Source: a virus
IMG/VR virus record: IMGVR_UViG_3300027980_000070
Coordinates: 1 to 36,699 of that record
Direction: 5' to 3' (one strand)
Length of the DNA stretch: 36,699 bases
The translations under genes and the position numbers were made by a program. Under the pieces are notes generated by a model. It had not been told where the DNA came from. It made no database searches and saw only the letters and a list, made by a program, of their open reading frames with translations. Below are positions 12,492-26,346 of this stretch, in pieces; position 1 is the stretch's first letter, and each line of letters opens with the position of its first letter.

Positions 12492-13406
12492 ATGACGAAA
12501 GTTAAAGATCAAATCATCAATGAAAAGTTCAGTTTATATAACGCCGATTGCGTATCAACAGTTGCGTCAATGCCGGATGAATCTATTGATTATACAATAT
12601 TTTCACCACCATTTTCATCGTTGTACACTTACAGCGATAGTATCAATGATATGGGTAACTGTCGAAACGATGATGAGTTTTACAATCATTTTAAATTCTT
12701 AGTGAAAGAGTTATATCGCACAACGAAGGCGGGGAGACTCGTCACATTCCATTGTATGAACATTCCTGCAATGAAAGAGCGTGACGGGTATATCGGTATT
12801 AAGGATTTCCGTGGTGATTTGATCCGAATGTTCCAGGATTGTGGATTCATTTACGCATCAGAAGTTTGTATATGGAAAGATCCGCTCATTGAAGCTGTAA
12901 GAACGAAAGCACTCGGTCTGATGCATAAACAGTTGTGTAAAGATTCGTCAATGTGTCGTCAAGGTTTACCTGATTACGTTGTCACCATGCGTAAACCCGG
13001 TGATAATAAAGATCTGATTAGTCACGAAAACGGACTAATCACTTATGCTGGCGAGGGTGATTTACCAGAAGGGAACCCCAGTCACAACACATGGCGCAAA
13101 TATGCCAGTCCTGTATGGATGGACATTCGCCAAACACACACACTCAATTATCGTGTTGCTCGTGCTGGCAACGATGAGCGTCATATTTGTCCGCTACAGC
13201 TGGATACTATTGAACGCTGTATGACATTGTGGAGTAAACCGAATGATGTTGTTTTGTCACCGTTTGCCGGGATTGGGTCAGAGATCTATCAAGCTGTTAA
13301 AATGGATCGATACGGTATTGGTATCGAACTGAAAGAGTCATATTATGATTGCGCTGTGTCGAATTGTAATGATGCTGCTGGGATCGAAGATCCGGGATTC
13401 ATGTAA
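12492..13406 (+). CDS. DNA amino-methyltransferase (N6-adenine or N4-cytosine), beta-class order
   Basis: 304 residues. Catalytic motif IV is near the N-terminus (FSPPFSSLY; S38-P-P-F41) and SAM-binding motif I is near the C-terminus (LSPFAGIGSE; F258), the circularly permuted beta-class arrangement. Hence it methylates an exocyclic amino group; SPPF does not by itself decide adenine versus cytosine. Its target site cannot be read from sequence. It lies between two SNF2-type helicases, with a one-base overlap to the second (TAATG). Likely roles are protection from host restriction or marking of replicated phage DNA. It is unrelated to the cytosine-5 enzyme on the other strand. Confidence 0.87.
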   Translation: MTKVKDQIINEKFSLYNADCVSTVASMPDESIDYTIFSPPFSSLYTYSDSINDMGNCRNDDEFYNHFKFLVKELYRTTKAGRLVTFHCMNIPAMKERDGYIGIKDFRGDLIRMFQDCGFIYASEVCIWKDPLIEAVRTKALGLMHKQLCKDSSMCRQGLPDYVVTMRKPGDNKDLISHENGLITYAGEGDLPEGNPSHNTWRKYASPVWMDIRQTHTLNYRVARAGNDERHICPLQLDTIERCMTLWSKPNDVVLSPFAGIGSEIYQAVKMDRYGIGIELKESYYDCAVSNCNDAAGIEDPGFM

Positions 13407-16012
13407 TGCTGAAACCAAGTAACCTGTTTGAATACCAGCGCAAGGCGGTACTACACCAACTCTACCACGATAAGTCAATGCTTTGGCTCGGCTGTGGACT
13501 TGGTAAGACGCCAACCACTCTCACCACCATTGACCACCGCATGAGAGCAGGACAGGTTCAGAAGACGCTGGTGTTCGGACCACTGCGAGTCATTCACGCA
13601 GTATGGGAGCGTGAGGCTCGCAAGTGGGAGCACACGAAACACTTACGATTCAGTGTGATCCACGGTAACGAGAAGAAGCGACTCAGACAACTGTTCGCCA
13701 GTGCTGACATCTATCTCTGCAACTATGAGAACATGGGATGGTTGAGTAATGTGTTGGATCACTATTACATCAGCCAGGGTAAACCGTTACCGTTCCAGAT
13801 GGTTGTCTATGACGAGATCACCAGGGTTAAGAACTCGAACTCTCAGCGTGTCGCTGGTGGAAACATCACACGTCAGAAGTTATTCGTCAGGAAACCATCG
13901 GAGCCGTCTGAACAAGATCTGAAAGGTAAAGGGTTAAAAGGTAAAGCGTTGCGTGAAGAAAAGGAACTAATCACCTCACGCAACATTCAACGGTATCAAG
14001 AAATCCGTCAACAGTTTCATCGTAACAAAGATGACATGGTTAATCAAACCGGGGAACTGGTCGTGGTCCCTGAGATAAAAGAAAGGATCATCGGATGGCG
14101 TGAGATGGTACAGCATTTCAAATACAGCACAGGCTTGACAGGCACGCCCTCGTCAAACGGTTACATTGATCTCCATGGTCAGTATCTCGTCATTGATAAT
14201 GGTGAGCGTCTGGGTCAGTACATCAGTCATTATCGTGATTCATATTTCGCTCAAGGTTACGACGGTTGGACGTATGATTTGACCGAGATGGGTAAGAAGT
14301 GGATCGAACACAAGATTGCTGACATCACCATCAAGATGGACTCAGAGGACTATCTGACTCTGCCGCCGCTGAAGATCAACGACATCATGGTGGATCTCCC
14401 TGCAAAAGTGATGCAGCAATATCGTGAAGTTGAGAAGGATATGTTCACTCGGCTCGATAACGGGACAGAGATTGAACTGTTCAACCGTGCATCTGTGTCA
14501 AATAAATGTTTGCAGTTCTGCATAGCTGAAGGTACTGAAGTTCTAACAAAATCAGGATGGAAAAATATAGAAAATATTAAAGCAGAGGATGAAGTGTGGG
14601 ATGGTTGTGAATGGTCAAGTGTTGACGGTTTAGTTTGCAACGGTTATAAAGAAGTGATAGACTGCGATGGTGTTGACATGACACCAGATCACAAAGTTCT
14701 GACTATTTCAGGATGGGTTGAGTCACAGGAGGCTGTTTATGGCAATGCCAGCGGTAGATTTAACAGGAAAAGTGTTCGGCTACCTGGCTGTGTTGAGCAG
14801 GTCAGGGACAACAAGTACAAAAAGCAAAAGAGCTACATGGTTAGTGCGTTGCATTTGTGGAAAAGAATTTATAGCTATCGGTCAAAACTTGAGAAATCCA
14901 AACAGACCGGGGATAAAGTCATGCGGTTGTCGCCACGGGGAAACAATCTTGAGTGTGACAGGTGGTCACGGTATGACAGGTCACAGAGCGTGGGTTTCGT
15001 GGTGCAACATGATATCTCGTTGTCACAATCCAAAAGACAAAGACTATGCGAATTATGGTGCTCGTGGAATAACAGTTTGTCAAAGATGGGAAAACTCTTT
15101 TTCAGACTTTTGGGAAGACATGGGTTCAACTTACAAAGATCACCTGATGATCGAAAGAGTGGGCAACAACGGGAACTACTGCAAAGAGAATTGCAGATGG
15201 GGAACGAGAATGCGTCAAGTAAACAACAAGAGGACATGTCACTACATCAACACACCGACGGGAAGAATAACTGTGACACAAGCAGCAAGACGCTACAACC
15301 TGAACCCTGTGATGATTTTTGCGAGAATAAGATACGGGTGGTTGGAGAAAGATCTTATCCTGCCAAAAGGATCAAGAAGGTCTACGACTTAGTTAACGTT
15401 GGTGACAAACACAGATTCACAGTAAGAGGTTCATCTGGTGAAGTCTTTATGGTTCACAACTGTAACGGATCACCGTACAACGAACCAATGAAACCAGAGT
15501 GGACAGCGCTGCACGATGAGAAGTTGCAAACACTGGATAGCATCGTTGAAGAGGCTCAGGGTAAGACAATCTTACTCGGTTACAGTTTCAAGTCTGACGC
15601 TGAACGGATCATGAAGCGGTACAAGCATTTGAAACCGGTCAACCTCACCAAAGTACCAGCGAAGGATCTCAGCAAGGTGATTGACCAGGGTAACAAGGGT
15701 CAGATTAAATTGATGCTGGGGCATCCTGCCAGCCTCGGTCACGGGGTTGACGGGCTGAACGACTTCTGCCACATCATCGTATGGTTCGGTTTGAATTGGA
15801 GCCTGGAACTGTACGAACAGTTGATCGGTAGGATTGCATCAGGTCAACGGTTCAAGCAACCGGTGACAATGCACAGGATACTGTGTAACGATACGATCGA
15901 TCTCGCTGTTGCTGACGCTCTGAGAAGAAAAGACAGTGACCAAGTTGGATTGAAAAAAGCCATCCAGCGATATCGTGACGGGATGCTGGATGGCTCGATT
16001 GATTTTATGTGA
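13406..16012 (+). CDS. SNF2-type DNA helicase/ATPase, copy 2, interrupted by an intein
   Basis: 868-residue precursor. N-extein (1-371): motif I GCGLGKT (29-35), motif II YDEIT (D136), motif III TGLTGTPSSNGY (~243). Intein at residues 372-685. C-extein (686-868) with CNGSPYNEPMKPEW, ILLGYSFKSDAERI, GHPASLGHGVDGL and the motif VI region YEQLIGRIASGQR. Splicing joins …KCLQF to CNGSPY…, giving a 554-residue mature helicase, close to the normal family length. It probably works with the methyltransferase, VRR-NUC and first helicase. The intein sits at a conserved position (KCxQ…NG) between the two RecA-like lobes. The 3' end overlaps the convergent tail-spike gene by eight bases and also encodes that operon's terminator on the other strand. 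Confidence 0.9.
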   Translation: MLKPSNLFEYQRKAVLHQLYHDKSMLWLGCGLGKTPTTLTTIDHRMRAGQVQKTLVFGPLRVIHAVWEREARKWEHTKHLRFSVIHGNEKKRLRQLFASADIYLCNYENMGWLSNVLDHYYISQGKPLPFQMVVYDEITRVKNSNSQRVAGGNITRQKLFVRKPSEPSEQDLKGKGLKGKALREEKELITSRNIQRYQEIRQQFHRNKDDMVNQTGELVVVPEIKERIIGWREMVQHFKYSTGLTGTPSSNGYIDLHGQYLVIDNGERLGQYISHYRDSYFAQGYDGWTYDLTEMGKKWIEHKIADITIKMDSEDYLTLPPLKINDIMVDLPAKVMQQYREVEKDMFTRLDNGTEIELFNRASVSNKCLQFCIAEGTEVLTKSGWKNIENIKAEDEVWDGCEWSSVDGLVCNGYKEVIDCDGVDMTPDHKVLTISGWVESQEAVYGNASGRFNRKSVRLPGCVEQVRDNKYKKQKSYMVSALHLWKRIYSYRSKLEKSKQTGDKVMRLSPRGNNLECDRWSRYDRSQSVGFVVQHDISLSQSKRQRLCELWCSWNNSLSKMGKLFFRLLGRHGFNLQRSPDDRKSGQQRELLQRELQMGNENASSKQQEDMSLHQHTDGKNNCDTSSKTLQPEPCDDFCENKIRVVGERSYPAKRIKKVYDLVNVGDKHRFTVRGSSGEVFMVHNCNGSPYNEPMKPEWTALHDEKLQTLDSIVEEAQGKTILLGYSFKSDAERIMKRYKHLKPVNLTKVPAKDLSKVIDQGNKGQIKLMLGHPASLGHGVDGLNDFCHIIVWFGLNWSLELYEQLIGRIASGQRFKQPVTMHRILCNDTIDLAVADALRRKDSDQVGLKKAIQRYRDGMLDGSIDFM
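14519..15460 (+). mobile_element. Class 1-type intein (314 residues) carrying an out-of-frame nuclease gene
   Basis: Block A begins at Cys1 (codon 14519-14521): CIAEGTEVLTKSGWKNIENI. Block B is VDMTPDHKVLTISGW, with intein T55 and H58. Block F is KRIKKVYDLVNVGDKHRFTV. Block G ends VFMVHN, followed by the +1 Cys (15461-15463). All catalytic residues for splicing are present (Cys1, block B Thr/His, penultimate His, terminal Asn, Cys+1). Residues ~74-291 coincide with the +1-frame nuclease gene; in the intein frame they form an Arg/Lys/Gln/Ser-rich sequence without endonuclease motifs. Because the frame never stops, the precursor is predicted to be translated and spliced despite this oversized linker. 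Confidence 0.9.
14739..15392 (+). CDS. HNH-like homing endonuclease gene nested in the +1 frame of the intein
   Basis: 217 residues from ATG 14739, with a perfect AGGAGG (14727-14732) six bases upstream; the frame is closed upstream by TGA 14700-14702 and ends at TAG 15390-15392. N-terminal DLTGKVFGYLAVLSRS and a CxC…CGC zinc-ribbon-like module (RCICGK…SCGC) come first. The nuclease core follows: HRAWVSWCNMISRCHNPKD, YGARGITVCQRW, FWEDMG, NNGNYCKENCRWGT, QVNNKR. The C-terminal ITVTQAARRYNLNPVMIFAR resembles a helix-turn-helix. This architecture is familiar from phage HNH-type homing nucleases. The usual IDR-type acidic site reads MIERV here. It should cut an intein-less helicase allele. The last ~20 bases overlap intein block F coding. 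It is translated independently of the helicase/intein frame. Confidence 0.85.
   Translation: MAMPAVDLTGKVFGYLAVLSRSGTTSTKSKRATWLVRCICGKEFIAIGQNLRNPNRPGIKSCGCRHGETILSVTGGHGMTGHRAWVSWCNMISRCHNPKDKDYANYGARGITVCQRWENSFSDFWEDMGSTYKDHLMIERVGNNGNYCKENCRWGTRMRQVNNKRTCHYINTPTGRITVTQAARRYNLNPVMIFARIRYGWLEKDLILPKGSRRSTT
15953..15994 (-). terminator. Late-operon terminator embedded in the opposing helicase gene
   Basis: On the minus strand, GCCATCCAGC (15994-15985) pairs perfectly with GCTGGATGGC (15968-15959), a 10-bp stem with a 16-base loop, followed by six U (15958-15953). It begins 10 bases beyond the tail-spike stop (16005) and ends the 20-kb virion transcript. The same bases encode the last residues of the helicase. 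On the plus strand the stem is not followed by a U run. Confidence 0.85.
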
Positions 16013-24742: not shown

Positions 24743-26346
24743 TCTAAGATCCCTGCTCTCACTGAGGCTTGGTAAAGTCTGACAATGTTTTCAGAGCTGA
24801 CCGACATTCCTCTTGTTCTCAACTCTGATGCGAGAGTGTCAAGATGTTGTGAAGGAACGTCTTCAATACCCTGATCCTTTTGCCATGTTACACCAAGGAA
24901 TGATTTATCGATAGCTGCTTTTTTGGTGAAACTGTTACCAACGTCACGAATCTCAGCTTCAGTCAACTTGGAACCTTTAACATCTTCAGCAGCGTTGAGT
25001 TCATCAGTGAACACCTGATAGATTTGATTGACGAACTCAGCATCTTTTTCAGGTTTAATTCTGCGACCAAGGATCTGTTCAACTGTAGACTTCATTATCG
25101 CAGATGTTGACTGAATGCGAGTTGTTTCAGTGTTCTTCCGCCCACCACGGGCTGACAGTATTGCTGATGTCAACTTGGTCCGGTCAGTCCTGTTCAGGTA
25201 CGAGTAATGATCAAGCGGATCAACCTTTGACAATTGATCAGGTGGTAAGCTCATCACGTCAAAGAATCTCGCCTGATCAGTGATGATCTGTTCTCCTGTG
25301 ACAAATTCTTCCTCAGCTCTCATCAGAGAGTCACGACCATTCGGACCGATAGCTTCCCAGATGTCCAGCGGAACGTCACCAGTCTTCTTTTTACCGGACG
25401 AAATATCAGCATCCCAACTGTTGACTTGTTCCTCTGCGAAGTCTTTCCTAGCTCGCTCATCAACAGTGAACTGGTTGTTAATTTGACGCTGGATCTCTTT
25501 ACGCCGGTCAGGGTCTTCTTCTTGTCGTGCAACAGCGAGCATGTCTTTCAATGGTGCCCCTGCTGAATAGATCTCAAACACTCGACCATTGACATACTGT
25601 TTATCGGCTTCTTTTCCCAGCTTCTCATTGAGTCTGACAGCCTCGCTACCCTCAAGCATATCGCCTTGAGTTTCCATCAGGTCGTTGGCGTTCTCAAGAT
25701 CACCTCGCGACAGAGCACCATTGATCGCGTTACTGATGAACGATGACCTGAACGATTCAAGATCTCGCGCTGTGACTTCATCGCCTACCAGCTCACGACG
25801 ATCCTGAATAGCTAACTCACCGAGCGAAAGATATGTAGCCAGCTCTTTATCGTTATTGTAGTACAGATTGGCGTTCTTGAGAGCGTTCTGTTCTTGAGCT
25901 TTACTGGTGGCGAGCATCCATGTTTCTTGACCCTTTGACGCATGACGCAAGATCGACGCTCTGTCACGAGTAACACGCACCGCTGCGGCACTTTGAAACA
26001 TCGCGGCAGCTTGAGGATTGAGTTCTTTGGAGTAACGAGCAACCATATCGTCAAGATTCCTGGTTGCCGCTTCCGCACTATCGAGAGCTGTACGACCTTG
26101 AGTATTAAAGTAACCGTCATTCGGATTGAAGAACATTTCGTTCTTCTCGTTGTCAAACGCCAGCATTGCATTTTCAGCAGCGGAACGGTCACGCTGCTGT
26201 TGGAACTGTTGCAGACCTTTCGTCAGGTTCGTCAACCCGGACGCAAGCGCACGAGTGCCAGAACTCACATCAGCAACCCGCGCACGCGGCTGCTGGGTAA
26301 CTGGTGTTCGAACCGTTGGTGTAGATACTCTCGGTACTTGAGGCAT
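24739..26346 (-). CDS. Internal virion (ejection) protein, gp15-like position
   Basis: 535 residues from ATG 26346 (TAATG overlap with the gene before). A Pro/Thr/Arg-rich N-terminus (MPQVPRVSTPTVRTPVTQQP) is followed by long helices, with Gln- and Ala-rich stretches (LTNLTKGLQQFQQQRDRSAA, AAMFQSAAAVRVTRDRASIL). There are no membrane spans or enzyme motifs. Its place between the gp14-like protein and the giant protein, and its size, match the middle internal core/ejectosome protein of T7-like podoviruses. By family analogy it would help form the periplasmic conduit during DNA entry. The call rests on synteny and composition. Confidence 0.7.
   Translation of the reverse strand: MPQVPRVSTPTVRTPVTQQPRARVADVSSGTRALASGLTNLTKGLQQFQQQRDRSAAENAMLAFDNEKNEMFFNPNDGYFNTQGRTALDSAEAATRNLDDMVARYSKELNPQAAAMFQSAAAVRVTRDRASILRHASKGQETWMLATSKAQEQNALKNANLYYNNDKELATYLSLGELAIQDRRELVGDEVTARDLESFRSSFISNAINGALSRGDLENANDLMETQGDMLEGSEAVRLNEKLGKEADKQYVNGRVFEIYSAGAPLKDMLAVARQEEDPDRRKEIQRQINNQFTVDERARKDFAEEQVNSWDADISSGKKKTGDVPLDIWEAIGPNGRDSLMRAEEEFVTGEQIITDQARFFDVMSLPPDQLSKVDPLDHYSYLNRTDRTKLTSAILSARGGRKNTETTRIQSTSAIMKSTVEQILGRRIKPEKDAEFVNQIYQVFTDELNAAEDVKGSKLTEAEIRDVGNSFTKKAAIDKSFLGVTWQKDQGIEDVPSQHLDTLASELRTRGMSVSSENIVRLYQASVRAGILE

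Follow-up and report, generated by a model that had tools for sequence, protein, structure and literature searches.

Introduction

Descriptions of inteins place the homing nuclease in the same frame and in the same polypeptide. The window analyzed here, which is the whole 36,699-nucleotide stretch of the IMG/VR virus record IMGVR_UViG_3300027980_000070, raises the question of where the nuclease is encoded when the frame of the intein itself lacks one. A first-pass annotation, made from the sequence alone, had placed a free-standing HNH-like gene in an alternate frame inside a helicase intein. We followed up this proposal computationally. Our preferred answer, to which we assign a probability of about 0.8, is that the element is a mobile, splicing mini-intein whose homing nuclease is encoded by overprinting and translated independently, and that the linker of the intein is a by-product, which is kept only open. 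Expression, splicing, cleavage and homing are all inferred, and no expression, splicing or cleavage data exist for the element.

Results

The Intein in the Helicase Gene Has No Nuclease in Its Own Frame

The helicase ORF (Table 1) matches the Pfam families SNF2-rel_dom (E 1.2e-11), ResIII and Helicase_C. The junctions of the intein with the exteins are TTC/TGC at 14518/14519 and AAC/TGT at 15460/15461. Block A is CIAEGTEVLT, block B is GVDMTPDHKVLT, block F is VYDLVNVGDKHRFTV and block G is VFMVHN; the splicing-block HMM scores are 110 and 59 (C-block HMM, 59 bits). The residues of a class 1 intein (C1, T55, H58, H313, N314 and Cys+1) are all present, as the first-pass annotation had claimed, and the first five are invariant across the 78 members of the intein family described below. 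The AlphaFold2 model has the HINT fold in its splicing part (pLDDT 93-98), and the top PDB matches found with it by Foldseek are all inteins (for example, 6frg, E 5e-4). Protein splicing of this intein is inferred from these features, without splicing data.

Table 1. Features of the helicase locus and of the nested gene in the window.
Feature	Position	Strand	Remarks
SNF2-like helicase precursor ORF	13406-16012	+	868 aa
N-extein, SNF2-like helicase	13406..14518	+	Pfam matches; collinear with the intein-less L001 helicase, 75% identical
Intein	14519..15460	+	314 aa; Cys1 to His-Asn, then Cys+1 (TGT at 15461)
Intein N-terminal splicing region, blocks A and B	14519..14728	+	residues 1-70; pLDDT 93-98
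Shine-Dalgarno AGGAGG of the nested gene	14727..14732	+	6 nt upstream of ATG
Nested HNH-family endonuclease gene	14739..15392	+	217 aa; frame +1 relative to the intein
Dual-coding linker, intein frame	14789..15358	+	residues 91-280; predicted disordered; without endonuclease motif
Intein C-terminal splicing region, blocks F and G	15359..15460	+	residues 281-314; pLDDT 93-95
C-extein, helicase	15461..16012	+	begins with Cys+1; 84% identical to intein-less L001; Pfam Helicase_C

The linker was modeled with a pLDDT of only about 43-69. When the intein frame of the window was searched with PHROG, Pfam and NCBIfam profiles, no HNH model matched, as the first-pass annotation had predicted for the linker, and the weak matches were confined to the splicing blocks. 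Pfam and NCBIfam gave no significant family for the intein or for the nuclease product taken alone. Since an HNH match in the intein frame is absent from all 78 members, the element does not qualify as a canonical bifunctional intein. A match of the intein frame to phrog_93, annotated as "endonuclease", is an apparent contradiction. However, in the window and in the other +1 members checked, this match covers the splicing-block region (approximately residues 19-117). Therefore, we read phrog_93 as a family that contains inteins and not as a nuclease domain. The match spans the whole intein only in the +2-type inteins.

The +1 Frame Encodes an HNH-Family Nuclease

The first-pass annotation had described a complete gene of 217 codons in the +1 frame with its own AGGAGG and ATG, and all its coordinates were verified. 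The gene starts with the ATG at 14739, and its stop codon (TAG, 15390-15392) overlaps the codons of block F. The closure of the +1 frame by TGA at 14700-14702 upstream of the gene, and that of the third frame by TAG at 14755-14757, were likewise found as described. The AGGAGG is the sole copy on the + strand of the whole window. As had been predicted, the product matches phage HNH endonuclease families among the PHROGs (phrog_374, E 2e-55; phrog_3377, E 6e-42; also phrog_2081). Its AlphaFold2 model has a mean pLDDT of 92.

Matches of this model to PDB folds were at noise level, with none at E<=0.001. The best match of the nuclease profile to PDB sequences was I-HmuI, which was marginal (E 0.24). 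In the I-HmuI alignment, the canonical first His of the HNH motif is absent; an Arg is aligned there in 58/58 aligned members (DR/ER...N...N). Since the Arg is seen family-wide, the missing His is a trait of the subfamily and not a sign of decay, and the catalytic chemistry of the nuclease is only inferred. Thus, the term "HNH-like" of the first-pass annotation holds for the PHROG family but not for the first His of the motif. Furthermore, residue 142 of the window nuclease is Gly, where 54 of the 58 relatives have Asp or Asn. Judged from these two residues, the window copy may be weak or inactive. A plasmid search gave no match.

Two other long open frames, both on the minus strand, are nested in ORFs of the window, 2072-2755 in the primase ORF and 25815-26222 in the endolysin ORF. 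They have no PHROG match and are probably due to chance.

Related Helicase Genes Have an Empty Site

Two IMG/VR homologues, L001 and L002, lack the intein at exactly the insertion point of the window (NKCLQF/SNGSPY and NKCLQF/ANGSPY, respectively), and their exteins are 75-86% identical to those of the window. Thus, the insertion is precise and in frame. A third homologue, L006, has an intein at the same helicase site; its exteins are 57-63% and its nuclease is 69% identical to those of the window. The +1 residue is Cys in both occupied genes and Ser or Ala in the empty ones. On sequence comparison, this patchy presence at a fixed site fits horizontal spread. Cleavage of the intein-less allele by the nuclease and promotion of its own copying are inferred; there are no cleavage data, and only the patchy distribution is seen.

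Another member of the same helicase family (L003:5001-7508) contains a different type of intein, which is in frame and has a stretch that resembles LAGLIDADG (AGLLDTDGYL). It is located at another site, adjoining the ATP-binding motif (GRGK/C). Thus, a single helicase family has been hit by both types of intein.

The Nested Layout Recurs in Dozens of Phage Inteins

When phage records were searched by tblastn, the intein-frame and the nuclease-frame queries converged on the same DNA. The shared targets were the DNA polymerase genes of APSE-1 and its relatives, of Shewanella phage SFCi1 and of Caulobacter phages. Among the IMG/VR loci found via the nuclease, each locus with a spanning alternate-frame ORF (the window, L006, L007, L008/L009, L081 and L004) also has an intein-bearing ORF, and the relative frame is always the same.

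A search for related loci with the window intein alone gave nothing, and the loci were found when an intein alignment was used as the seed. Filtering by the N- and C-terminal splicing HMMs left 80 unique inteins, 78 of which were usable. The viral loci were the best 80 of 290, ranked by tblastn similarity to the whole window intein. Because of this ranking, the sample favors members with the insert. In 77 of the 78 inteins from these best 80 of 290 loci, the longest alternate-frame ORF matches HNH PHROGs at E<=1e-5; 71 of these ORFs are in the +1 frame and 6 are in the +2 frame. The exception is L160, which has an 82-aa ORF in a mini-intein of 166 aa. SNF2-like helicases and DNA polymerase A are each interrupted at several sites, and other phage genes have insertion points as well. 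Carriers of the architecture include APSE-1, SFCi1, Sodalis phage SO-1 and streptococcal prophages, and six prophage-like loci in bacterial genomes have the +1 nuclease. Since dozens of related phage inteins share it, the nested layout is a conserved design and not a freak of a single genome.

These results modify the nesting proposed by the first-pass annotation. The out-of-frame nesting in an intein that looks competent for splicing is supported by every test, but it is not a unique event. The architecture is inherited and shared by 77/78 of the sampled inteins, with a few independent origins.

Seven loci (L092, L107, L119, L148, L166, L169 and L173) carry a pair of inteins from this family, and in four of these loci (L107, L119, L148 and L169), the nuclease is in the +1 frame in one intein and in the +2 frame in the other.

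The Intein Frame Avoids Stop Codons

Stop codons in the intein frame were counted across the 77 nested genes and compared with the counts expected when synonymous codons are permuted within each gene. No stop was present in 17,423 nuclease codons, against an expectation of 559 +/- 18, whereas the unused third frame of the same genes had 1,097 stops versus 1,056 expected. For the window gene alone, the permutation gave a mean of 12.4 intein-frame stops, and zero was never reached in 20,000 trials. The first-pass annotation had put the probability that this frame stays open by chance at 3 in 100,000; an open frame far beyond chance was borne out, but the figure was too generous to chance. Because the 77 inteins had been selected for an open frame, the test was rerun without this condition. 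Among 86 pairs of N-block and C-block in one frame, none had a stop in between. In contrast, 0/74 free-standing relatives of the nuclease keep that frame open, and there it has 11.3 stops per 100 codons.

In the +1 layout, an intein-frame stop arises where a T-ending codon precedes AA, AG or GA. At two-fold pyrimidine codons in this context, the nested genes use C 690 times and T 0 times, in comparison with C 1,592 and T 1,151 elsewhere in the nested genes and C 439 and T 860 in the same context in free-standing relatives (Fisher p 2e-141 and 2e-230, respectively, with relatedness ignored).

The first-pass annotation had accepted stops in the intein frame of relatives as a refutation. None was found in the 17,423 codons, but one locus on a Dependentiae contig (L176:3001-3944) has a broken intein frame and still holds a nuclease ORF. 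This is decay, a misassembly or some other arrangement.

Selection Acts on the Nuclease Frame

The first-pass annotation had proposed a comparison of codon-position substitution rates in both frames. In this comparison, the nuclease frame is constrained and the linker behaves like the third frame. Over 138 pairs, 49% of the changes are at nuclease third positions. Omega of the nuclease frame was 0.08-0.24 in close streptococcal and other pairs and about 0.1-0.2 in most. Purifying selection thus acts on the nuclease frame. For the linker in the intein frame, most omega values were close to 1 or higher, and the unused third frame gave a very similar picture; the identity of the linker between relatives equals that of the third frame. 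Therefore, apart from having to lack stops, the linker peptide is under no detectable constraint on its amino acids. The AlphaFold2 models agree with this pattern, in which the splicing parts and the nuclease are ordered and the linker is disordered.

In Many Members, Start Signals Lie in Splicing-Block Codons

The starts of the nuclease genes cluster at intein nucleotides 188, 203 and 221. In many members, the Shine-Dalgarno sequence is inside splicing-block codons, such as GAGGT in H-E-V-L and GGAGG in E-G-W. An ATG or GTG with a Shine-Dalgarno sequence of >=5 nt was found in 41/69 members, where 13.9 were expected after synonymous permutation of the intein frame. In several +2 members, the likely start is in the VEW codons near nucleotide 93, and the Shine-Dalgarno sequences are weaker. 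Internal initiation yielding a free nuclease is inferred from these signals, without expression data.

Origin and Loss of the Nested Genes

In the nuclease tree, the nested genes require at least five label changes, and branches with good support force two of these. The +2 members form a single clade. On this tree, a few independent nestings were followed by long inheritance. In a streptococcal polymerase intein (L189:2852-3356), approximately 423 nt of the nuclease region are deleted in frame. The splicing blocks are retained and the intein frame is open, and most of the nuclease is gone. This deletion is an apparent natural loss of the nuclease, and L189 and the mini-intein L160 are the expected decay end of the homing cycle.

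Discussion

Proposed Mechanism and Alternatives

Under the mini-intein reading, frame 0 would encode a short HINT splicing domain joined by a throw-away linker of approximately 190 residues, and its product would excise itself and restore an intact helicase. The +1 frame of the linker DNA would give a separate HNH-family homing endonuclease of 217 aa, made as a free protein from its own Shine-Dalgarno sequence and ATG. This nuclease would cleave a helicase allele without the intein at the point of insertion, and repair would copy in the whole 942-bp element. Selection acts on the nuclease protein in the +1 frame and, in frame 0, on the splicing blocks and the absence of stops, with the amino acids of the linker essentially free.

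A single genome alone could not have ruled out that the dual coding is an artefact or decay, produced when sequencing errors or a pair of compensating indels shifted the frame of a canonical in-frame HNH intein. We consider this possibility negligible. The same two open frames occur in 77 inteins from many contigs and from isolate phages, the nuclease frame is under strong selection while frame 0 avoids stops, a Shine-Dalgarno sequence and a start codon are present, and no member of the set has an HNH match in frame 0. Sequencing error is thus rejected by the conservation of the architecture. Two compensating indels had been named as a refutation by the first-pass annotation, and they are excluded in effect, because dozens of diverged relatives keep the same two frames. 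It is also very improbable that the insert is an HNH-encoding group I (or II) intron that interrupts a polymerase or helicase gene. The SO-1 record does annotate the homologous element in this way, with the polymerase and gp39 labeled "type I self-splicing intron", and HNH genes are common in phage introns. However, frame 0 is open through the insert and contains all splicing blocks, C1, HN and C/S+1, none of which an intron needs. A group I intron was rejected because an intron RNA core was not found; no Rfam match at the gathering threshold was detected anywhere in the window.

Two further alternatives accept the intein and differ in the origin or the role of the nuclease. The nuclease could be made by programmed frameshifting from the precursor, as a fusion of N-extein, intein and nuclease, and not by internal initiation. 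A few members do lack a good Shine-Dalgarno sequence (3/77 have none of 4 or more nt), but the over-representation of Shine-Dalgarno sequences with starts speaks against frameshifting, and in the window almost no room is left for it, since the +1 ORF is closed by the TGA 36 nt before the ATG. We regard frameshifting as improbable. The nested gene might also no longer be, or might never have been, a homing enzyme. It could be a hitch-hiking free-standing phage nuclease or serve in competition between phages, while the intein spreads passively. HNH genes of the same family stand free throughout phage genomes, the catalytic His is absent, and L189 and L160 keep the intein without the nuclease. 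On the other side, a homing cycle predicts both the patchiness at one fixed site, where the nuclease relatives are matched, and the survival of inteins that have lost their nuclease. We regard a role other than homing as unlikely.

Relation to Known Systems

No description of an out-of-frame nuclease inside an intein was found in the literature; the coverage was partial and did not include a preprint on non-canonical actinobacteriophage inteins. This preprint (Gosselin et al., bioRxiv 10.1101/2025.01.02.630785), cited in PMC11855218, is said to treat actinobacteriophage inteins with a non-canonical architecture and may describe out-of-frame nucleases in them.

We are evenly divided on a broader proposal, namely that the family represents an undescribed and widespread class of "overprinted inteins". 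In this class, the nuclease would always be a separate protein from an overlapping frame with start signals in conserved splicing-block codons, and the class would have arisen more than once and now be a major form of intein in the DNA polymerases and helicases of tailed phages.

The nearest published case, though not in an intein, is the ShiLan domain and the Pacc40 insertion, where HNH endonucleases are encoded out of frame within the methylase genes of mycobacteriophages (Arsenault, Gosselin, Gogarten 2025, PMC11855218). Neither a splicing domain nor a ribosome-binding site was detected by these authors, who conclude that these are neither inteins nor introns and note that overlapping reading frames are frequent in actinobacteriophages (PMC11855218). 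As in the window, the insertion hides an HNH gene in another frame without closing the host gene, and the distribution is homing-like. In contrast to these cases, the insert described here has all intein splicing blocks, the HINT fold and a Shine-Dalgarno sequence, and the family resides in helicases and DNA polymerases. In canonical bifunctional inteins, the endonuclease is in frame and is of the LAGLIDADG or the HNH type (for the latter, Dalgaard et al. 1997, cited in PMC5050341). The window intein shares with them the splicing blocks, the conserved insertion sites and the location of the nuclease between blocks B and F, but its nuclease is the separate product of a gene in another frame, and its in-frame linker has no nuclease.

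The nested layout would be a second solution, in which one frame is spliced and the nuclease is encoded in another, so that folding of the nuclease is separated from splicing. The idea that a free nuclease acting in trans homes better than an intein-bound one becomes testable. With one frame constrained only against stops, these overlapping genes are also a clean case provided by nature, and the cost of overprinting is measurable with them. In many phage inteins, including those in the polymerases of common Salmonella and Streptococcus phages, a long, "featureless" linker may conceal a nuclease that gene finders drop because of the overlap.

The DNA polymerase inteins of APSE-1 (NC_000935.1, P45/P46) and Sodalis phage SO-1 (NC_013600.1, gp38/gp39) are direct relatives with the same architecture. 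Their records already list the overlapping HNH ORFs as genes, without the interpretation as homing genes nested in inteins. P46 of APSE-1 is annotated as a truncated ORF of 140 aa, and the SO-1 nuclease is annotated as the product of a group I intron. Both annotations look like misannotations of the nested-nuclease architecture.
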